From NCBI GenBank assembly GCA_031254875.1, contig JAIRTW010000063.1, forward strand, positions 1 through 43,691: 43,691 bases of DNA, in the 5' to 3' direction. This document shows, piece after piece, positions 11,371 to 29,117 of the stretch (within the stretch, counting starts at the first letter, position 1; each line of letters opens with the position of its first letter). This stretch comes from Candidatus Bathycorpusculum termitum. GTDB taxonomy: Archaea; Thermoproteota; Bathyarchaeia; Bathyarchaeales; Bathycorpusculaceae. The notes beneath the pieces are model-generated. The model was not told where the DNA came from, made no database searches, and saw nothing but the letters and a program-made list of their open reading frames with translations. Both the position numbers and the translations under genes were made by a program.

Positions 11371-12047
11371 TTTGTTTCACCTTTTTCTACGAGTTTCATG
11401 GCTAATTTTTGAGCCTCAGCAAGATTACCTTCCAAGAGGGCTCGTTTGATGTTCACGTTATCTAATATCTCATATAACAGTTTACTTCTATCTTTTGGGT
11501 CAGAAACCCTGCTTTTTAGGGCACTGCGGACTTTTGCTTGTAGCTCAATGGCAAGCAGATCCTGTGGTGTGATCAAATTTTCGATGCGTTCACGTAGCAC
11601 ATGTGCCATAGCGGGGCTTTTGCCGCCGGTGGATATTGCGATTTTGACGTTACCGATTTTAGCGATGGCAGGCAGAATAAAGTCGCTAAGCGCAGGATTA
11701 TCAACAGCATACACCAGGCAGCCATATTTTAGGGCGGCTTCTATGAGTGCATGGTTGAGTTTGCTATTGTTAGTGGCGGCTAAGAGTACATCAGGTTTGG
11801 GGTTGAGACTATCAAGAAAGGATTGGGCGTCCTTAATTTCGGTTTTAATCAGGTTAACTTTCTTGGTTTCGCCAAGTTTAAGGGCTTCAGCGGAGAAGTC
11901 TTGACTAATCATCCAAATCACTGCGTCTGAATCGAGTAAGCTTTGGACTTTGCGTGTTGCTTCTTTGCCGCCGCCGATTACTATGACGAGTTTACCGTCG
12001 AGTTTGAGGTCAAGTAACAATGTTTTGGTCGCCGCCTCTGGAAGCAC
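11367..12047 (-). CDS. Precorrin-2 dehydrogenase/sirohydrochlorin synthase (CysG N-terminal/Met8-like)
   Basis: NAD-dependent oxidation of precorrin-2 to sirohydrochlorin. 226 residues. Seen: LDLKLDGKLVIVIGGGKEATRKVQSLL (Rossmann GGG nucleotide loop), VLLAATNNSKLNHALIEAA, VYAVDNPALSDFILPAI, and the ISTGGKSPAMAHVLRERIE helix typical of the CysG/Met8 domain. No methyltransferase domain is attached; cobA is separate. The GTG at 12047 overlaps the upstream gene by 38 bases. A TTG at 12020 would cut the overlap to 11 bases and still keep the Rossmann loop. Confidence 0.93.
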   Translation of the reverse strand: MLPEAATKTLLLDLKLDGKLVIVIGGGKEATRKVQSLLDSDAVIWMISQDFSAEALKLGETKKVNLIKTEIKDAQSFLDSLNPKPDVLLAATNNSKLNHALIEAALKYGCLVYAVDNPALSDFILPAIAKIGNVKIAISTGGKSPAMAHVLRERIENLITPQDLLAIELQAKVRSALKSRVSDPKDRSKLLYEILDNVNIKRALLEGNLAEAQKLAMKLVEKGETK

Positions 12048-13614
12048 TAAGCATATAGTTGGTTATGAGGTTTTTGAATTTAGCCGTAAATGCGTCATAG
12101 TCAACCTTTGTTATCTGAGGCGGAAAAGCAATTTTTGTGAACAAATCCAAGGCTATACTTTTTTCGACGGCTTCTATGGCCTGCGCTCCAAAGTCTTCAT
12201 AGCGGATCTCAATTTCGGGAATCATACCGCGCACGTCCAAATCCAATCGGGGCACCATACCCAGCAACTCCACCCCCGCCTGCCCAAAGGCTTGCTGTAT
12301 CATCTGTTTGGTTTCCTCTGTGATGTAGCTGATACGGAGCTTGTTTAGAATAACGCCGCGGATTTTGACACCAAGACTCTGCAATGTTTTTATGTAGTTG
12401 AGGGTGTTTATGAGGGCTCCTTCGAGGCCTTCTTTGTCACAACCCACCACAACGACCGTTGAGGCGCCCAATGCAGCTGCAACCTCGGCTGTGGACATAG
12501 GACGTTTATAGTTCTCGTTTAGCAGTCCTGTGAATGCGCTCATGGCGCCTTCAACTATGAGAAAGTTGTAGTCCAAACTTGCCGCTGTGACAGCCTGCTC
12601 AAGGGGGGTCCAACCACTTTCGCCAATCTTTATGGATGAATACTCACGGATGGGTTCTTTGATAAGATAGAGAGAGGAAACAGCGTCGCGGATGTCGCCG
12701 CCGACTTTGATGACTCCGACGTTGTAGCCGCGTTTTTTGAGGGCGCCTGCGATGCCTGTTACTATGAATGTTTTGCCTGAGCCGCTACCCAACGCGGTGA
12801 TCATGACGAGTTTAGTTGGGGTTTGGCTGAGGGCGGGTTGCTGGCGGATACCTGTGGAGATACCGACTTCGCTTTTGATGTTTTCGAGTAGTTTGGTATT
12901 TGCTTTTTTGATTTCCGCAAGATCGAGTGTGCTGATGTCAAGTGACTGCATGATGCTGTGTAGAATCGGGGGGTTCTGATCTAAGAGTCCGTGGATAAAG
13001 ACGCCGGCTACGTTGCCTTCTTTGTTGGCGACGCCTGAGATGAGGTCTTGGGGGTTTTTTTTATAGTTTATCCGGTTAGCATGTGTCACAAGGATGGGCC
13101 GGGAGTTGCCGTGGAGGACTGTCTGGCCATAGGTGTGGCAGTGGAAGCCTCTGACGTCTTGGCCGATTTCCTGTGTTATAAAGCTTTTATCGACGATGCT
13201 GGCACAGACGCGGTCAGTGCAGACCAATGGCTTGAATTCAACGTCAAGCAATCCTAATCCTTTGCGGACGAGAGGTGATGTAGATAGGCGTCCAACATCG
13301 GTTTCTTTGGCGAGCACTTGGAAGCCTGAGCAGACGCCGAGCACGTACTTTCCTGACTCGGCCATTTTGATGATTTCTTTGGTGACCGTGGGGTTGATGC
13401 TTCCCGATTCGACAAGGCTACCTCCGGGGATGATGAGCATGTCTAAAACTTCCGATGCGGGTTTGCCGTTGACTTGAGCGTCTGCATAAACGAGGTCTGT
13501 TGGGAGGTTCCCAAAATTTTCAAAGCAGGGTAAGGCACCTGAAAGATAGACTAAGCCTATTTTGTGCCGTAACACACCCGAGTAGGACGCATTTATTTTT
13601 GTTGTTGACACCAC
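12010..13614 (-). CDS. CobB/CobQ-type glutamine amidotransferase with reversed domain order (GATase then P-loop)
   Basis: 534 residues, first gene of the minus-strand operon, with a GTG start and GGAGGA upstream. Residues 15-225 form a class I amidotransferase domain of the CobB/CobQ type: MLIIPGGSL, nucleophile C95 in VLGVCSGFQ, and H208 in GVFIHGLLDQNP. After a linker, residues about 268-500 form a dethiobiotin-synthetase-like ATPase: Walker A GSGSGKT at 276-282, LIVEGAMS, VVVGCDKEGLEGALI. CbiA/CobB and CbiP/CobQ normally have the ATPase first, so this order is reversed. By context it probably amidates a corrinoid or sirohydrochlorin-type carboxylate (cobyrinic acid a,c-diamide, cobyric acid, or a Ni-sirohydrochlorin). 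Which substrate cannot be decided from sequence. Confidence 0.85.
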   Translation of the reverse strand: MVSTTKINASYSGVLRHKIGLVYLSGALPCFENFGNLPTDLVYADAQVNGKPASEVLDMLIIPGGSLVESGSINPTVTKEIIKMAESGKYVLGVCSGFQVLAKETDVGRLSTSPLVRKGLGLLDVEFKPLVCTDRVCASIVDKSFITQEIGQDVRGFHCHTYGQTVLHGNSRPILVTHANRINYKKNPQDLISGVANKEGNVAGVFIHGLLDQNPPILHSIMQSLDISTLDLAEIKKANTKLLENIKSEVGISTGIRQQPALSQTPTKLVMITALGSGSGKTFIVTGIAGALKKRGYNVGVIKVGGDIRDAVSSLYLIKEPIREYSSIKIGESGWTPLEQAVTAASLDYNFLIVEGAMSAFTGLLNENYKRPMSTAEVAAALGASTVVVVGCDKEGLEGALINTLNYIKTLQSLGVKIRGVILNKLRISYITEETKQMIQQAFGQAGVELLGMVPRLDLDVRGMIPEIEIRYEDFGAQAIEAVEKSIALDLFTKIAFPPQITKVDYDAFTAKFKNLITNYMLSASRGGDQNIVT

Positions 13615-14329: not shown

Positions 14330-15619
14330 ATGCAGTTCTCAGCGAAGGTAGACCACGTTCTCAACGTTCGCATCACGCACAAGACAGCCCGCGTGATGCT
14401 TATGGAAAGCGCGGCATTTAAAGAGAAAAAGCAAGCGCTCGCAGAACTCAAAGCCATAGAAGGCATAGAGGAATGTCTACTTTTACAGACATGTAACCGC
14501 ATAGAGATCTACCTTACAGCTGAAGAAACCCAAAAAGCCCTCGCATCCGCCAAAGAATACCTCGCCAACAGGGCAGGCGAACATGCTGAGGAAGTTTCAA
14601 GGGCCATTGAGACTGCAACAGATAAAGATGCACTCAACCATTTACTTCGCGTAACGTCAGGCATGGAATCCATGGTTATCGGCGAAGATCAAATTCTCAA
14701 CCAAGTCTGGGACGCCTACATAGAAGCGGATAACGCCAAAACACTCGGACCGATCTTAAAGCATCTTTTTAACCGAGCCATGACTATTGGCAGACATGTA
14801 CGCAATGAGACTGGCATCAATAAGGGCGCAGTTTCAATTGGGTCAGCTGCAGTCGAATTGGCCGTTACACTACTTGAGAATTTGGAGGACAAAAAAATCC
14901 TTGTCATGGGCGCAGGCGAAATCGGCACCCTTGTCTCTAAGGCTCTTGCCCGCCGATGCCTAAGCCCCATATTCATTGCCAACCGCACCTACGACCGAGC
15001 CGTTAAACTCGCCTCAGACCTCAAAGGCGAAGCTGTACACTTCGACAAATTCAACGCCGTTATGGTAAATGCCGACGTCGTCATCTGTTCCACCTCAGCA
15101 CCCCACTATCTATTAACCAAAGAAATCATCACACGACTCATGCTACAACGCAAAAACCCTTCACCCATGATAATTATAGATATCTCCAACCCCCGTAACG
15201 TCGAGAAAACCGTCAACGAAGTATCGGGTGCCAAACTCTACAACCTCGACGATCTAAAGAGTATAGCAGACAAAAACAAAGCACAACGAGAAAGAGCCAT
15301 CGAACATGCGCAGGACCTTCTAAACGAGGAATTGATTAGCCTCGAAGACGACATGAAAAGCCTCAGCGTGCGTCTAATCATCTCAGAAATCCTCTCCGAA
15401 ACCGAAGAGATTCGCAAACGAGAACTCCTCACCGCGCTCAACAAAATGGGTAACCTCGACGAGCACCAAAAACAAGTTTTGAATGATTTAACTTCGATTT
15501 TACTCAAGCAAACCTTTATTCCTATAGTTGAAAACCTCAGGTTAGCCGCCAAAAACGATGACACAAAAAGCATCGAAGTAGCGGTTAAATTGTTTGAGAA
15601 AACGGGGAAAAAACAGTGA
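14330..15619 (+). CDS. hemA: Glutamyl-tRNA reductase
   Basis: NADPH-dependent reduction of glutamyl-tRNA(Glu) to glutamate-1-semialdehyde, first committed step of the C5 pathway. 429 residues from the ATG at 14330, supported by the TATA spacing. Catalytic Cys C55 lies in LLQTCNRIEIYL. Then RVTSGMESMVIGEDQILNQV, a Rossmann loop VMGAGEIGTLVSKAL, FIANRTYDRA, and a C-terminal dimerisation helix region. First gene of the plus-strand operon; its stop overlaps the GTG start of the next gene by 4 bases. Confidence 0.97.
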   Translation: MQFSAKVDHVLNVRITHKTARVMLMESAAFKEKKQALAELKAIEGIEECLLLQTCNRIEIYLTAEETQKALASAKEYLANRAGEHAEEVSRAIETATDKDALNHLLRVTSGMESMVIGEDQILNQVWDAYIEADNAKTLGPILKHLFNRAMTIGRHVRNETGINKGAVSIGSAAVELAVTLLENLEDKKILVMGAGEIGTLVSKALARRCLSPIFIANRTYDRAVKLASDLKGEAVHFDKFNAVMVNADVVICSTSAPHYLLTKEIITRLMLQRKNPSPMIIIDISNPRNVEKTVNEVSGAKLYNLDDLKSIADKNKAQRERAIEHAQDLLNEELISLEDDMKSLSVRLIISEILSETEEIRKRELLTALNKMGNLDEHQKQVLNDLTSILLKQTFIPIVENLRLAAKNDDTKSIEVAVKLFEKTGKKQ

Positions 15620-16698
15620 CAAAAACAGCATTGGATAATGATGTAGGTTTAATTCTAATTGGACATGGGAGCAAACTTCCCCATAACCAAGAAAATCTCG
15701 AAAAGCTCGCAGACATTTTGCGAACACAATCAGCATTTAAACTAGTAGAGATCGCATTCATGATCCGAAACACCCCTACCATCCCCGAAGCTATAGATAA
15801 TATCACCAAAAAAGGAGCAAACAAAATCGTTTTGGTGCCCGTATTCCTTGCCGCAGGTGTCCACACAACACAGGAAATTCCTGAGCTAATAGAAGTCAAA
15901 GATAAACAATCCCAGCTTTCCAAACGGGGCATCCAGCTGTTCTACGGCGAACCCATAGGTGCAGACGAATGCATCGCTGTTATCCTCGAAGAAAAAGCAC
16001 TAAAAGCTCTAGGCGATGGTTGGGAGCATCGACATGCCCACTTCAGAGGCACTGCAATATCGACTTATCCGGCGACTTCCACTAAAATTTATGAGCAAAG
16101 TATGAAACTTATTCACCCCGAGATTCAAGATGTGCTTGACAAAGCGCCCAAAAGTCAAATCCCAATAATCGAACGCGTCGTTCACACGACCGCCGACCCC
16201 GAATTTGCAAAGCTCTTAGTTATCAGTGACCGAGCCGTCGAGGCAGGTGTTGCCGCCATCAAGGCAGGTGCCAAAGTCATCACCGACACCAAAATGATTA
16301 AAGCAGGTATCCATGAGGCGCGGGTACAACGGTTTGGCGGAGAAATTTTAACCTATATCGATGATTCCCGAGCCAGCAAAGCTGCAACAGAAGAGTCTAT
16401 TACACGGTCCACTGCCGCGGTGCGGTTGGCGGTTGCTGATGATGCAGATGGGGCTATTTTCTTAATCGGCAACGCTCCCACGGCGGCTTTTGAGCTTGCT
16501 GAACAGGTTAAGCAGGGTAAAGTTAAACCTGCGTTGATAGTTGCGGTTCCAGTTGGGTATGTTGGTGCTGCAGAATCCAAAGAAGCCATCGCCCAACTTG
16601 CCGTTCCATATATAATTATAAAGGGAAGAAAGGGTAGCAGCACCATCGCGGTGGCGATCTTTAACGCACTGCTGGCGATGGTGGAAGCCAAACCATAG
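15616..16698 (+). CDS. cbiX-cbiC: Sirohydrochlorin cobaltochelatase fused to precorrin-8X methylmutase (CbiX-CbiC)
   Basis: Bifunctional 360-residue protein. Residues 1-125 are a small-type CbiX chelatase: LILIGHGSK with H17, and FLAAGVHTTQEIPELI with H83, the two expected metal-handling histidines. Residues about 161-360 are CbiC: IIERVVHTTADPEF with catalytic H190, then VITDTKMIKAGI, SITRSTAAVRLA, FLIGNAPTAAFELAE, VAVPVGYVGAAESKEA and IKGRKGSSTIAVAIFNAL. CbiX inserts Co2+ into sirohydrochlorin; CbiC moves a methyl from C11 to C12 late in the ring pathway. So one chain joins the entry and exit steps of the ring modification. GTG start overlapping hemA. Confidence 0.95.
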   Translation: MTKTALDNDVGLILIGHGSKLPHNQENLEKLADILRTQSAFKLVEIAFMIRNTPTIPEAIDNITKKGANKIVLVPVFLAAGVHTTQEIPELIEVKDKQSQLSKRGIQLFYGEPIGADECIAVILEEKALKALGDGWEHRHAHFRGTAISTYPATSTKIYEQSMKLIHPEIQDVLDKAPKSQIPIIERVVHTTADPEFAKLLVISDRAVEAGVAAIKAGAKVITDTKMIKAGIHEARVQRFGGEILTYIDDSRASKAATEESITRSTAAVRLAVADDADGAIFLIGNAPTAAFELAEQVKQGKVKPALIVAVPVGYVGAAESKEAIAQLAVPYIIIKGRKGSSTIAVAIFNALLAMVEAKP

Positions 16699-23400: not shown

Positions 23401-23670
23401 ATGCATGTCCATCATAAGAGAAGAAAAGAAGTACAGAACCGCTTAGCCAGAATCGAAGGTCACGTCCGCGGCCTCAGAAAAATGGTTGAGGAAGACAAAA
23501 CCTGCCCAGAAATTCTCTTACAAATTATTGCCATACGAGGGGCACTAAACAAAGTGTCCCGCATAGTACTCGAAGACCATATAGAGACCTGCCTAAAAGA
23601 AACCGCCGCCTCAGGTGAAACAGAACAAAGCCTCGAAGAACTCAAAGAAGCCCTATCCAAACTCATCTAA
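23401..23670 (+). CDS. CsoR/RcnR/FrmR-family metal-sensing repressor
   Basis: All-helical DUF156 repressor, 89 residues. RLARIEGHVRGLRKMVEEDKTCPEILLQI and LNKVSRIVLEDHIETCL are characteristic. Ligand positions C35, H60 and C64 match the Cu(I)-sensing CsoR set. The N-terminus is MHVHH, supplying His near position 3, as in the Ni sensor InrS and in RcnR. So Cu(I) and Ni/Co are both plausible. It precedes the P1B ATPase by 17 bases and presumably controls it through the palindrome upstream. Confidence 0.93.
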   Translation: MHVHHKRRKEVQNRLARIEGHVRGLRKMVEEDKTCPEILLQIIAIRGALNKVSRIVLEDHIETCLKETAASGETEQSLEELKEALSKLI

Positions 23671-23687
23671 CCCAAAAGGGAGAAATT

Positions 23688-25520
23688 ATGACTCCAAAAC
23701 TAGCGCTTCTATCGGTTTTTACAATACTGGGTTTAGCAGGCTGGTTAACAGCAGTCTTTGGGCTCTTGCCCCCCTCAATAACTTTTTGCATGCAGATTTC
23801 TTCAGCAACTATGGCTTTATGCACCATCGGATATGGCGCAATTAAATCGCTTTGCAACAAAATTTTCAGTATGGATGCCTTAGCAAGCATCGCCATACTG
23901 GCCTCAATTGTCAGTGGAGAATATTTCCCAGCAACCATGGTGGCGCTTATGCTCTTAGGCGGAGAAATGCTCGAAGATTATGCACAGGGGCGAAGCTCCA
24001 AAGCCATACAAAAACTCCTCGAAGACCAGCCTCAAACGGCCACAGTTCTAAGAGATGGGCAGGAGGTTCAGGTTAATCCTGAAGAGGTTCAAATCGGAGA
24101 GATAGTTATTGTTAAGCCGGGTGCAAAGATTCCTATCGACGGTATTATCGAGAAGGGATATGCAGCCATTAATCAAGCCGCAGTAACGGGTGAATCAGTA
24201 CCTGTTGATAAATCAAAGGGGGCAGAGGTTTACAGTGGAACTATAGTTCAGCAGGGAGCCATCTATGTGGCTACGACGGCAGTTGGCGAAAAAAGTACCT
24301 ATGGCCGGATAATCAGTATGGTCAGGGAGGCCGAAGAAAAGAAGGCCCCAATAGAGCGAACGGCGGATAAATACGCAAAATACTTCACGCCAACTATACT
24401 AGGTATAGGTTTGATTGTTTTTATATTAACTCAAGATCTCTTGCGAACAGCGGCAGTCTTTGTAATAGCCTGCCCATGCGCATTAATCTTGTCGACTCCA
24501 GCCGCCATTGTGGCAAGCATTGGAAACGCTGCAAAAAAAGGGATCCTCATACGGAATGGAGAAACCTTGGAAAAGATGTCTAAGGTTAACGTGTTGGTTG
24601 TAGATAAAACGGGAACAATCACCAAAGGCGAGCTGGAAGTTACAGGCATAAAAAGCTTCAGTCAATACACACCTAATCAGATTCTACAGTTTGCCGCCGC
24701 AACTGAAAAATGTTCTGAACACCCCTTTGCCAGAGCTATTTTAGAGGAAGCACACAAAAAAGAATTGGATGTCGCACATCCCGAATGCTTTGAACATCAT
24801 CCAGGCTTAGGAGTATGCATCACCAATAACGGATCATGTATAGTCACTGGAAATGAACGTCTAATGCAAAAATATGCCATACAGCTAACTCAGGATATAC
24901 AGAACTATGTGGGAAAACAGAATCAATCATCAGTTGTCCTTGTTGCAAAGGAGGGAGTTTTGTTGGGCGCGATAACTTTGTCAGATCAACCCAGAGAAAA
25001 CATCAAAGAGATGCTCTCAGAAGTAAAGAAAAACGGAGTTAAACAGGTCGTAATGTTAACGGGAGATAACAAAAACGTTGCCCAAGCCGTTGCAGTAAAC
25101 TGTGCAATCGACCAAGCGGCATCTGATTTGATGCCTGCTGACAAAGTTAACAGAATTAGAAGTCTCAGAGATCAAGGGTTAACAGTTGCTATGGTGGGAG
25201 ATGGAATTAATGATGCTCCAGCACTCGCCGAAGCGGATGTTGGGGTTGCCATGGGATTGTCGGGAACTGAAACAGCTATTGAAACAGCCGGTATAGTACT
25301 TGTCTCAGATGACATAACAAGGTTACCACAGATATTAAAGATAGGGAAAACAACGATGGCAGTGATTAAGCAAAACATCGCATTTGCCTTAGCAGTGAAC
25401 ATTATCGGCATAATCTTATCCAGCCAAGGGCTGATATCACCATTGGCCGCATCCATAATTCATGAGAGCAACGCATTGATAGTCATGGCTAATTCACTCA
25501 GACTCCTTAGGGTAAAATAG
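23688..25520 (+). CDS. P1B-type heavy-metal-transporting ATPase, CPC type, no N-terminal metal-binding domain
   Basis: 610 residues; exports metal ions across the cell membrane. Actuator VTGES (166-170), transmembrane CPC (262-264) in VIACPCALILSTPAAIVAS, phosphorylated D306 in DKTGT, the SEHPFA motif with the P1B His, and hinge GDGINDAPAL. No CxxC or His-rich N-terminal domain. The last membrane helix reads HESNALIVMANSLRLL, closer to the HEGGT type of P1B-4 (Co/Fe/Zn) than to the Cu signature MxxSS. CPC with an HES-type last helix leaves the substrate open (Co, Ni, Zn or Cu). Co-transcribed with the repressor. Confidence 0.93.
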   Translation: MTPKLALLSVFTILGLAGWLTAVFGLLPPSITFCMQISSATMALCTIGYGAIKSLCNKIFSMDALASIAILASIVSGEYFPATMVALMLLGGEMLEDYAQGRSSKAIQKLLEDQPQTATVLRDGQEVQVNPEEVQIGEIVIVKPGAKIPIDGIIEKGYAAINQAAVTGESVPVDKSKGAEVYSGTIVQQGAIYVATTAVGEKSTYGRIISMVREAEEKKAPIERTADKYAKYFTPTILGIGLIVFILTQDLLRTAAVFVIACPCALILSTPAAIVASIGNAAKKGILIRNGETLEKMSKVNVLVVDKTGTITKGELEVTGIKSFSQYTPNQILQFAAATEKCSEHPFARAILEEAHKKELDVAHPECFEHHPGLGVCITNNGSCIVTGNERLMQKYAIQLTQDIQNYVGKQNQSSVVLVAKEGVLLGAITLSDQPRENIKEMLSEVKKNGVKQVVMLTGDNKNVAQAVAVNCAIDQAASDLMPADKVNRIRSLRDQGLTVAMVGDGINDAPALAEADVGVAMGLSGTETAIETAGIVLVSDDITRLPQILKIGKTTMAVIKQNIAFALAVNIIGIILSSQGLISPLAASIIHESNALIVMANSLRLLRVK

Positions 25521-25532
25521 AAAAGCGCATCG

Positions 25533-26399
25533 TTAAACGCTCTTTTTGGCCTCTTTAACGGCTTCGCTTATGAGGCGCAATATTTCCTTTCTTGCCTCAC
25601 TAATTGTGAGAGGAAGCTCATCAGCTATGGGCAGGTTGTTTTCTTTCTTCAAGACTTCAAAGAGATGGGCTATACGGGGAGAGCGCAAGTTTACTTTCCG
25701 AATTAGCTCGGTATTTGAGAAGCTTGTTTTGGGGGTGCCCTCGGAGACTAGTTTGCCTTTGTTTAAAATGCAAAGTTTGTTTGCGAACAAAGGAACAATA
25801 TCGACATCATGAGTAGCTAGCACCAATGTAATGCCGTTTTCTTTGTTGAGCTGAAGCAACAGATGCAAAATATCGCTAGTTGCAATGGGGTCAAGGCTTG
25901 AGGTGGGTTCATCCATAATGATGACTTCGGGTTGCATAGCAAGAACACCGGCAAGTGCAACCCGCTTCTTTTGACCCCCGCTAAGAAAATGAGGGGGTTT
26001 ATCCGCATATTCAATCATGCCAACAGTGGTGAGGGCTTCATCTACTAGTTTTTTAACATGTTCAGGAGTGTAACCAAGATTTAGAGGCCCAAAAGCCACG
26101 TCCTGTTTTACTGTGGGAGCAAAAAGTTGATCGTTAGGGTCTTGGAAAACAAAGCCTACGCGTTTGCGTAGTTCAAGCAGGGATTTGGAGTCATATTTGA
26201 GGGGAATGTCGTCAAAGAGGATAGTACCATGGGTAGGTTTTAGGATACCGTTTAAGTGGTTGAGCAGAGTGGTTTTGCCTGAGCCATTGGAACCTAATAA
26301 AGCGATCCGTTCTGCTCTATCAAAGGCGATTGTGACCTCGTCTAATGCAATAGTTCCATCCGAGTATTCATGTGTAAGATTTTCTATTTTAAACAACAT
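25533..26399 (-). CDS. cbiO: Cobalt/nickel ECF importer ATPase
   Basis: ABC ATPase energising the adjacent CbiMNQ fusion. Walker A GSNGSGKTT, Q-loop VFQDPNDQLFAPTV (typical of ECF ATPases), signature LSGGQKKRVALAG, Walker B VIIMDEPTSSLD, and switch His in LATHDVD. Start is uncertain: the ATG at 26399 follows the cbiMNQ stop by 5 bases, while one at 26417 would overlap it by 13. The 3' end is 12 bases from the convergent P1B ATPase. Single ATPase, so it probably works as a homodimer. Confidence 0.95.
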   Translation of the reverse strand: MLFKIENLTHEYSDGTIALDEVTIAFDRAERIALLGSNGSGKTTLLNHLNGILKPTHGTILFDDIPLKYDSKSLLELRKRVGFVFQDPNDQLFAPTVKQDVAFGPLNLGYTPEHVKKLVDEALTTVGMIEYADKPPHFLSGGQKKRVALAGVLAMQPEVIIMDEPTSSLDPIATSDILHLLLQLNKENGITLVLATHDVDIVPLFANKLCILNKGKLVSEGTPKTSFSNTELIRKVNLRSPRIAHLFEVLKKENNLPIADELPLTISEARKEILRLISEAVKEAKKSV

Positions 26400-26404
26400 A
26401 TTAT

Positions 26405-28204
26405 TCAAAGGCTCCATATGTGAAGGATATTTAGGGCAATTAGTGCAAGCAGTATATCTATGATCAAGATGCCTGCAAGTGTTATTTTACTTGGTTTAGG
26501 TTGGTCTTCTAGCACGCGGATGTTTCCATCGTAGCCCCGGGCGTTCATGGCAACAAAGGTACGTTCGCCTTGTTCTAGGGTTCTTATAAAGAGGTTGGCT
26601 GTAAGCAGGGCGGTTGATCGGATGCGGCTTAGCCAGCCGCGTTGTCCGAGGCGTAGTTTCTGAGCGGTGTTCATTTTTGAGACGGTCTCCATGAAGACAA
26701 AGATGTAGCGGTAAATTAGCAGGCTGAGTTCGATGAGTATTTTGGGGATGTGGATTTTTCTTAGGCTTACAAATAGGTCGGTCATAGATGTGGTAAGCAC
26801 TAAGAAGAACATGGCCGAGACTGCGCCAAGTACTCTAAAGAAGGTTGTTAGGGCTATTGTTATGCCGTTATTGTAGATTACCCAGGTAAACCATGGAAAG
26901 GGAATTTCGACAAGAGCGGTACCGTATCCAAATAACAAGGCCAGAAAGATACAGCTCAGCGTTGCAAACAATAGGGGGTAAGTTAAGAGATCGAGGTAGA
27001 ATCTGGCAGGTATTTGTGCTACTGCAAGGATTAGCACTACTGTTATTATGAAGACAGTTAGGGGGACAATTGGTGAAAATGAGAGGACACTTAGTAATAG
27101 CATTGATAGAGCGAAGAAGATTTTGGTTGTTGGGCTTGTTTGTGCTAATCCATTGGTGTAGGCATAGCTGTCGATGTGTCCTGAAATGTTACTGTGGCCT
27201 TCATCGTGGCTATGGCGGTGTCGATGTCTAGCATGTTTATGTTGTAAAGAGGGCTGTTTTGCTTGGTTGCGGTGTGCTCGTATGGCTACATAGATTATTA
27301 TTGAGGCCCCTATGAGGGCTTGCAGGACAAACAGGGGGGTTTCAAATTCCTCAGGTAATTCTAAGACAGGATTAAACCATGGTTGATAGCCGGTCTGGCC
27401 GATTATATCTGCGGCGGCATCATCGGTACCGGTCATATTTGTGGAAATAAACACCAGGGGGGTTATGAAAAGAGTTAGCAGTACAGCGATTAAGATTGCG
27501 TAATGTTTCTTTTTGAGGTGAAACTCTTTTTCTGTGATACCGGCTAGTGGGGAACGGAGGACATTTAGAGACCTTAGAATTTGGCTTTTATATTTTATTA
27601 GGAAATCAAAGAGGAAAACCGCCAAGATGCCTTCAGCTATTGCCAGGGGAATTTGCGTTACTGCGAAAATGCCTGCAAATTGGAGGAATGCTTGTGTGAA
27701 TCCTGTTGCAGGGAAAGCCAATGCAAGTTGAAAAGATGTGGTTACATAAGTGGAGAGATCGCTTAATGCTACTGCTAAGAATATCCCTGCTTGTATGGGT
27801 ACTTTGGCTTTTTTGCAGATTAGCCATGTGAGGTAAGCAATTGCTGGTCCCACTACACCCATGGAGAAGACGTTGGCACCTAAAGTTGTTAGACCACCAT
27901 GTGCCAGTAGTGTTGCTTGGAAAATCAGGGCAATCATGGAAAGAACGGCTGCTATAGCGGGTCCAAAGATTACTGCAACTAAGCCTGAGCCTGTGGGGTG
28001 GCTGCTACTTCCGAAAAATGAGGGTAGTTTTAGTGCACTAACAACAAAGATGAAGGCGCCCATTAGAGCTAGTAGGGGTTTTGCTTCGGGGCGTTTTTTT
28101 ACTATTTTTGTTAGTTGGTAGATGCCGAGGGCTACGATTGGTATTGTGATTGCCCACCAGATTTCCCACCATGGAGATGGTAAGAACCCCTCCATTATAT
28201 GCAA
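26405..28204 (-). CDS. cbiMNQ: CbiM-CbiN-CbiQ fusion, membrane part of the cobalt/nickel ECF importer
   Basis: 599-residue membrane protein combining three normally separate subunits. Residues 1-220 are CbiM: MHIMEGFLP at the N-terminus (His2 is a known metal ligand) and SSHPTGSG. Residues about 233-310 are CbiN: a helix, an extracytoplasmic loop with DIIGQTGYQPWFNPV, and a second helix. Residues 311-345 form a His-rich linker (HKHARHRHRHSHDEGH; 8 His between 322 and 343). Residues about 345-599 are CbiQ, the energy-coupling T component, ending with the AMNARGYDG coupling motif. The TTG at 28204 is required as start to give MHIMEG and has AAGGAG 9 bases upstream. Confidence 0.95.
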   Translation of the reverse strand: MHIMEGFLPSPWWEIWWAITIPIVALGIYQLTKIVKKRPEAKPLLALMGAFIFVVSALKLPSFFGSSSHPTGSGLVAVIFGPAIAAVLSMIALIFQATLLAHGGLTTLGANVFSMGVVGPAIAYLTWLICKKAKVPIQAGIFLAVALSDLSTYVTTSFQLALAFPATGFTQAFLQFAGIFAVTQIPLAIAEGILAVFLFDFLIKYKSQILRSLNVLRSPLAGITEKEFHLKKKHYAILIAVLLTLFITPLVFISTNMTGTDDAAADIIGQTGYQPWFNPVLELPEEFETPLFVLQALIGASIIIYVAIRAHRNQAKQPSLQHKHARHRHRHSHDEGHSNISGHIDSYAYTNGLAQTSPTTKIFFALSMLLLSVLSFSPIVPLTVFIITVVLILAVAQIPARFYLDLLTYPLLFATLSCIFLALLFGYGTALVEIPFPWFTWVIYNNGITIALTTFFRVLGAVSAMFFLVLTTSMTDLFVSLRKIHIPKILIELSLLIYRYIFVFMETVSKMNTAQKLRLGQRGWLSRIRSTALLTANLFIRTLEQGERTFVAMNARGYDGNIRVLEDQPKPSKITLAGILIIDILLALIALNILHIWSL

Positions 28205-28217
28205 GCGTATTTTCTCC

Positions 28218-28250
28218 TTTGCTGGATAATCCAGCCAGCAAACTTATAAA
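28218..28250. promoter_or_regulatory. Shared palindromic TATA box and overlapping inverted repeats between cbiMNQ and its divergent regulator
   Basis: TTTGCTGG (28218-28225) pairs with CCAGCAAA (28235-28242). A second palindrome GCTGG-ATAAT-CCAGC (28221-28235) overlaps it. TTATAA (28244-28249) is self-complementary and can serve both directions: about 37 bases upstream of the regulator ATG and about 40 upstream of the cbiMNQ TTG. The repeats lie where cbiMNQ transcription would begin, so a bound protein would block it. Likely operator for the neighbouring winged-helix protein. Confidence 0.6.
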
Positions 28251-28286
28251 CATTCATTTAACTAAAGTTAACCAAAGGTTGAACAT

Positions 28287-29117
28287 ATGACTAAGCAACA
28301 AACCCTGCTCTTAAAAGACAAAGGAGAATTCACCAAATTCCAAATCCTCCTCGAAATCATGCGCCACCAACCCCACATCAAACAAAAAGACATAAGCGAC
28401 AAACTCGGCATAACCATCCAAGCCATCAGTAAATACTTCAAAAAACTAAACAAAGAAAGCCTCCTCGAATCAGGCAGCGAACGCGCCGACTACCGCCTAA
28501 CCCCCAAAGGAGTAACTAAACTACGAGAAGACCTACGAAACTTGGAAAATTATGTCAGAGAAGTTAAACAGGACCTAAAAATCGAACACGCCTGGCCAGC
28601 CATAGCCACCCAACCCGTCAAAACCGGAGAGGAAGTGGGCTTAATCATGAAAGAAGGCGTTATGTACACCTCACCCATCGAAAACCCCCAAACCCAAGCC
28701 AGAGGCATAGCACTCACCAACGCACAAACAGGCGAAGATTTGGGCCTAAAAAACCTCCACGGCAAACTATACGTTAAACAAGGAAAAATCCTCATCGTAA
28801 AACTACCCAGCATACGCCGAGGCGGCTCCAATGCAACAGACATAACAAAAGTACAAATATACTATGACGAATTCAAACCCGACCGGATAGGCGTTATGGG
28901 AGCAGTCGGCAGAGCAGTCCTCAACAAACTAGGACACAAAGCAGACATCGAATTTGGAATCAGCCGCTCCGCAGCCATCGCCGCATCCAGAGGCCTAAAC
29001 GTCTTTGTACTAGTAGTAGGCAGAATGGTCAACCGCATGATACAAGAAATCGACCAGATCAACATGAAATCCGGCGGCAACATAATCTACGAAGTCAAAG
29101 ACGCACAATTAACATAA
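28287..29117 (+). CDS. Winged-helix regulator with C-terminal sensor-like domain, divergent from cobalt importer
   Basis: 276 residues. N-terminal MarR-like winged helix (about 15-78): FQILLEIMRHQPHIKQKDISDKLGI then QAISKYFKKLNKESLLES. The C-terminal domain has a beta-rich part (residues 105-190, LYVKQGKILIVKLPSIRRGG) and an alpha/beta part (DRIGVMGAVGRAVLNKLG, then VFVLVVGRMVNRMIQ). I believe it is a conserved archaeal regulator architecture but cannot name it. Position and the palindromes in the 82-base intergenic region suggest it controls cobalt/nickel uptake and perhaps itself. The ligand might be a metal or a corrinoid. Confidence 0.8.
   Translation: MTKQQTLLLKDKGEFTKFQILLEIMRHQPHIKQKDISDKLGITIQAISKYFKKLNKESLLESGSERADYRLTPKGVTKLREDLRNLENYVREVKQDLKIEHAWPAIATQPVKTGEEVGLIMKEGVMYTSPIENPQTQARGIALTNAQTGEDLGLKNLHGKLYVKQGKILIVKLPSIRRGGSNATDITKVQIYYDEFKPDRIGVMGAVGRAVLNKLGHKADIEFGISRSAAIAASRGLNVFVLVVGRMVNRMIQEIDQINMKSGGNIIYEVKDAQLT

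Follow-up and report, generated by a model that had tools for sequence, protein, structure and literature searches.

One open reading frame for CbiM, CbiN and CbiQ: a predicted single-chain membrane part of a cobalt importer in Candidatus Bathycorpusculum

Can the S component and the T component of an ECF metal importer be made as one polypeptide, and what would such a linkage change in the working of the transporter? The question is raised by a gene in a stretch of 43,691 nucleotides of Candidatus Bathycorpusculum termitum (contig JAIRTW010000063.1; hereafter the window), in which an initial annotation saw CbiM, CbiN and CbiQ fused into one polypeptide. The open reading frame coincides exactly with the coordinates given there, runs through 599 codons without internal stops, and carries all three Pfam domains above their curated gathering cut-offs (CbiM, E = 8e-54; CbiN, E = 4.5e-10, PF02553 score 39.8 over a cut-off of 25; CbiQ, PF02361, E = 1.4e-45; Table 1). 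NCBIfam models recognised CbiM (TIGR00123, 276.9 bits with a cut-off of 184.15), CbiQ (TIGR02454, 161.1 bits with a cut-off of 111.8) and the neighbouring CbiO (TIGR01166, 249.9 over 211.8), and the NCBIfam cbiN model TIGR01165 reached 47 on the window protein, below its cut-off of 104.85.

Table 1. Features of the fusion gene and its surroundings in the window
Feature	Positions	Strand	Description
cbiMNQ fusion gene	26405..28204	-	599 aa, TTG start; ORF and Pfam
CbiM (S component) domain	27581..28201	-	residues 2-208; Pfam; His2 and His69 align with His2 and His67 of NikM (4m58)
M/N junction	27503..27574	-	residues 211-234; K/R-rich; no in-frame ATG, GTG or TTG in the window gene
CbiN domain	27317..27496	-	residues 237-296; acidic loop (0 K/R, 7 D/E) between two hydrophobic segments
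N-Q linker	27179..27286	-	residues 307-342; His/Lys/Arg-rich; probably cytoplasmic
CbiQ (T component) domain	26525..27145	-	residues 354-560; Ala-Arg-Gly at 555-557
Shine-Dalgarno-like AAGGAG	28214..28219	-	9 nt before the TTG of the fusion gene
cbiO, ABC ATPase	25533..26417	-	ORF overlaps the 3' end of the fusion gene by 13 bp
Palindrome TGGATAATCCA	28223..28233	.	lies between the start and the TATA-like box; elements resembling it precede cbiM in many relatives (by eye)
TATA-like TTATAAGT with upstream inverted repeat TTAACtttaGTTAA	28242..28284	-	similar in relatives (by eye)

The TTG codon is taken as the true start because of the AAGGAG upstream of it and because the resulting N terminus, (M)HIMEG, contains the His2 conserved in all six fused genes described below. 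The codon at this position is ATG in four of the six, TTG in one and CTG in one; L004 and L036 also have longer frames that begin further upstream. We take His67 of the NikM structure, the counterpart of His69 in the window protein, to belong to an N-terminal His metal site. According to an excerpt of PMC6828968, the first two residues participate in substrate binding. The Ala-Arg-Gly of CbiQ is invariant in the three fused proteins of one alignment, which concerns the second of the two motifs, and its meaning is taken from an excerpt of PMC3246461.

Group I CbiMNQO features are present at the locus: CbiM with an N-terminal His site, CbiN, CbiQ with an Arg motif, and CbiO in the operon. In place of the normally separate M, N and Q there is one open frame; this was not counted against membership, because systems with an MN fusion are also assigned to this group. 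A group II ECF transporter, with S units exchanging on a shared module, is unlikely in view of the S-T fusion and the gene's own cbiO. Because cbiO is directly adjacent and a B12 operon adjoins, we predict with good confidence that all membrane components of a group I ECF cobalt importer are made from this gene as a single chain, in the order S component CbiM, accessory CbiN and T component CbiQ, and that this chain is energised by a CbiO dimer. Cobalt for B12 is the likely substrate, since B12 genes adjoin the transporter. One strand of the window carries hemA, a cbiX-cbiC fusion, cbiD, cbiE, cbiT, cbiL, a further tetrapyrrole methylase, a cbiG-like gene and cbiH, and the other carries hemB, hemC and hemD together with a hemL-like aminotransferase, a methylase and siroheme-synthase-like genes. 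Two further CbiQ-family proteins are encoded elsewhere in the genome (C50 and C98).

Several other genes of this neighbourhood may be recorded here. The CbiX-CbiC protein (15616-16698), which joins a chelatase to a precorrin-8X methylmutase, is another fused cobalt-handling gene of the same cluster. A CobB/CbiA-like protein (12010-13614) has its glutamine amidotransferase domain ahead of the nucleotide-binding domain, the reverse of the usual order. Adjoining the importer, a CsoR/RcnR-family repressor is followed by a heavy-metal P-type ATPase (23401-25520); of eight neighbourhoods fetched, only L082 (G023) has this pair. A divergent HTH regulator with DUF7839 lies at 28287-29117, and such a regulator is found beside the transporter or some kilobases from it in seven of the eight. 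In many of the relatives compared by eye (35), the inverted repeat TTAACtttaGTTAA, a TATA-like box and then TGGATTATCCA precede cbiM, and the region 28223-28284 of the window is a candidate operator. TGGATTATCCA occurs at five places in the genome versus one for the reversed control, and once in the window versus 0.8 expected by chance with one mismatch allowed; the single window occurrence of the palindrome TGGATAATCCA is likewise not above chance. As regards a riboswitch, the window gave no Rfam match at gathering thresholds.

To what extent is the fusion shared? Six of the 32 Candidatus Bathycorpusculum genomes searched, that of the window included, carry it at full length without an internal stop (for L006, as read with a stop-inclusive end). 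The other five proteins are 80% (G023 and G042), 74% (G007), 73% (G015) and 68% (G043) identical to that of the window, and each has the same three domains over the Pfam cut-offs. Close cbiM, cbiN and cbiQ genes, separate from one another, are present in 17 of the remaining 26 genomes; the other nine (G003, G005, G009, G016, G017, G021, G022, G024 and G047) gave no match or only distant paralogues or fragments at contig ends. In a class-wide survey CbiM was matched in 91 of 256 genomes; seven matches lie in frames of more than 400 codons (next longest, 371), all within this genus, namely the six cbiMNQ fusions and G020:C74. A phylum sample, overlapping with that of the class, gave matches in 117 of 398 genomes, with five in frames of more than 400 codons, all of this genus (next longest, 315). 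Outside the fused clade, the orthologous loci of 32 genomes (31 loci and that of G161) without exception have M, N and Q as separate ORFs, with CbiM 58-73% and CbiQ 55-65% identical to the window. Beyond Thermoproteota, where plasmids were covered, no fused product is named among the matches listed (40 of 42, with some rows unannotated), and the three matching plasmids inspected (H1, H3 and H4) all have separate M, N and Q ORFs. Within Thermoproteota the M-N-Q fusion is rare, and the suspicion that a chain including CbiQ is unusual was borne out among the genomes surveyed.

The fused proteins form a single clade in a maximum-likelihood tree of 39 loci that was built from the M and Q domains; the branch between fused and split loci has a support of 99 in the tree file (100 in the rerooted version), and L037, from G043, branches earliest within the clade. 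Fused and split genes are regarded as orthologous because cbiO lies directly downstream in all eight fetched neighbourhoods (four fused, four split) and because the cbi operon stands beside both kinds, that is, in four of the eight (fused L080 and L081, split L083 and L086) and also in the window. Gaps between cbiM, cbiN and cbiQ in the split loci are mostly short, or the genes overlap, and in 4 of 31 loci the three genes already stand in one frame; three of these four, in which the gaps are 3 and 27 nt, are almost identical to one another, and the fourth has a 153-nt gap. Judged from sequence, such split loci are the raw material for fusion. As a separate observation, cbiN has about 168-179 codons in 13 of the 31 split loci. 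In six split loci with a long cbiN (L009:2293-2802, L013:1246-1755, L014:1291-1800, L039:1240-1746, L041:2457-2996 and L075:1414-1941) a weak BLAST match is also found in the first half, which suggests two CbiN-like units; Pfam recognised only the second unit in the four long cbiN tested (L009, L015, L017 and L039).

The seventh long frame, G020:C74 (L035:2144-3826), is by its open frame a second M-N-Q fusion, in a different, nickel-like system that is 28% identical to the query. Its CbiM and CbiQ parts exceed the cut-offs, its middle segment has no Pfam match, and an ABC ATPase lies directly downstream. The separate counterpart of this middle segment in the window genome bears a weak resemblance, below cut-off, to PDGLE, presumably a nickel-type domain. 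The expected start codon, after GGAGGT, reads ATA, and the first ATG, GTG or TTG comes only near position 41 in the CbiM profile. L035 is thus weaker evidence, being a single case with ATA at the expected start. Fifteen further genomes of the genus, that of the window included, have comparable operons, and in these the ORFs are separate. A second fused system in many genomes was considered and rejected, since the DNA shows stops between separate M, N and Q genes.

A simple hydropathy scan of the window protein gave 13 segments, five of them in CbiM and five in CbiQ before the Arg-motif loop. The M/N loop contains eight K/R, the CbiN loop none (with seven D/E) and the N-Q loop seven; these loop charges are as expected if the C terminus of CbiM, both ends of CbiN and the N terminus of CbiQ lie inside. 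Counting the CbiQ segments as crossings from inside would put the Arg-motif loop outside, where it is not expected; the scan is not a full topology, and only the local K/R pattern was used. By that pattern alone, the fusion probably requires no added membrane crossing.

Could the open frame be an artefact of sequencing or assembly that masks stops between separate genes, a possibility raised for CbiN and CbiQ in the initial annotation? Relatives indeed have separate genes, and yet the frame is open in six genomes, five of them at 68-80% identity to the window. Moreover, the carriers include assemblies of 3 contigs (G007) and about 10 contigs (G015), so it is not a feature of fragmentary assemblies alone, and canonical start codons have gone from both junctions of the window gene. 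Such an error is therefore hardly conceivable. It is less far-fetched, though still improbable, that one gene gives several working proteins, either by cleavage of the linker or by internal initiation, leaving CbiMN and CbiQ. The basic, fast-evolving linker could accommodate this, and L037 retains the in-frame ATG found at the cbiN start of split relatives, preceded by AGGAG at a distance of only 1 nt. However, no in-frame ATG, GTG or TTG occurs at either junction (M/N, N/Q) of the window gene, the junction starts in the other five lack a Shine-Dalgarno-like motif in the stretch tested except for AGGT before residue 352 of L037, and the frame has been preserved throughout a linker stretch of 30-34 residues in the six proteins.

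The linker itself invites another explanation, that its His residues bind Co2+ or Ni2+ and collect, chaperone or sense metal; collecting or sensing was suggested in the initial annotation. For the window, the stated 8 His in 22 residues (322-343) are correct, and none of 2000 shuffles of the window protein reached this number. Over residues 311-343 there are 9 His in L001, 6 in L004, 6 in L005, 5 in L006, 3 in L036 and 2 in L037. The cluster exceeds nearly all shuffles in four of the six (matched in 0, 2, 0 and 4 of 2000 for L001, L004, L005 and L006), but is common in those of L036 (1036) and L037 (1983); three His positions of the window are Tyr in L036, and the earliest-branching L037 has no cluster. 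If a function depended on the cluster, L036 must hence have lost it and L037 must lack it. The linker is also the fastest-changing segment, with a mean identity among the six of 36% (M 80%, M/N junction 58%, N 65%, Q 72%) and a rough mean pN/pS of 0.59 (M 0.19, M/N junction 0.35, N 0.29, Q 0.24; low in the three domains), all ratios being rough with pS near saturation at 0.69-0.77. From its K/R content it is probably cytoplasmic, past the transport step, and so it would not collect metal from outside. Metal collection as the main function of the linker was rejected on its low conservation and its His count of 9 down to 2, and a metal-binding linker in any of these senses is very unlikely. The sequences fit a tether inclined to carry basic and His residues better than a metal collector; most likely, its His residues are incidental or contribute some minor tuning, and the cluster may have a role in the subgroup of L001, L004, L005 and L006. 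Next to CbiQ, the linker can be aligned with the N terminus that CbiQ has in split relatives, where the sequence is often M-S/A-H-S. More serious is the possibility, which we entertain tentatively, that the fusion is a neutral, lineage-specific loss of stop codons without effect on the working of the transporter. The four split loci already in one frame (three of them near-identical), the loose constraint on the linker and the limitation of fused forms to a single clade all speak for it; maintenance of the fusion across six genomes and the M-N-Q fusion in the nickel-like paralogue of G020, one case only, speak against it.

Compared with known systems, the window CbiM aligns with that of CbiMQO from Rhodobacter capsulatus (5x3x and 5x41) over residues 1-203 (E = 5.8e-61) and the window CbiQ with 5x3x_Q over residues 363-593 (E = 1.4e-20); a longer match to 5x41_Q starts inside the His stretch of that chain. 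The solved complex has M and Q as two chains, whereas M, N and Q are one chain in the window, where CbiN and CbiO are also present as in group I CbiMNQO systems. Other Bathyarchaeia have orthologous cbiM-cbiN-cbiQ-cbiO genes with the same order and neighbours, but as separate ORFs. Fusions of CbiM with CbiN, described as familiar in the initial annotation, are in print: GSU3004 and GSU1279 of Geobacter sulfurreducens are CbiMN and NikMN fusions (excerpt of PMC7726332); the joining stated there concerns M and N, and the window adds Q. YkoD, a fused ATPase pair of an ECF system (excerpt of PMC5037267), is likewise a fusion of components, although two A domains are joined there and S is joined to T here. 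The weight placed on a fixed 1:1:1 stoichiometry was overstated, as CbiMQO already has a stoichiometry of 1:1:2, with CbiN weakly bound and failing to co-purify (excerpt of PMC7689651); what the M-N-Q linkage would alter is the freedom of CbiN and the S unit to part from the T unit. No M-N-Q or other S-T fusion is mentioned in the excerpts of open-access ECF literature covered (PMC11109136, PMC6828968, PMC2667541, PMC7689651, PMC10368641, PMC5037267, PMC12075633, PMC7726332, PMC2700814, PMC7761784 and PMC3246461). Each part is of a known family, and a conserved M-N-Q architecture is not found described within these excerpts.

How might a transporter of this kind work? In our model of the single-chain importer, Co2+ would be bound at the N terminus of CbiM, with loading aided by the outer loop of CbiN, and ATP-driven movement of CbiQ would tip CbiM and thereby release the ion inside. 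A short basic segment would connect CbiM to CbiN, and a flexible tether of about 30-35 residues would lead from CbiN to CbiQ; the two connections are probably cytoplasmic. The tether would hold S and T together through the cycle, making full release of the S unit unnecessary here: the S unit would be barred from diffusing off the T unit, and a tether of about 30 residues could still permit tipping. For group II, a single-molecule study of 2025 describes dissociation of the S unit with ATP hydrolysis, notes that expulsion has not formally been shown to be essential, and considers a comparison with a group I system interesting (excerpt of PMC12075633). A study of 2023 points to a possible diversity of mechanisms and mentions a power stroke proposed for the group I system BioMNY (excerpt of PMC10368641). 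As plausible as its opposite, in our judgement, is the wider reading that this is a natural covalent S-T ECF transporter, tethered all through its cycle, which would make S-unit release dispensable in group I metal importers, and that such a transporter arose twice in the genus, in the cobalt type of six genomes and once in a nickel-like type.

The fusion would mean that neither CbiN nor the S unit is able to leave the T unit. It would also provide a CbiN that purification cannot lose, which matters since CbiN is reported not to co-purify (excerpt of PMC7689651). Moreover, a naturally tethered version and untethered orthologues within the same genus would make a ready pair for testing the need of S-unit release.
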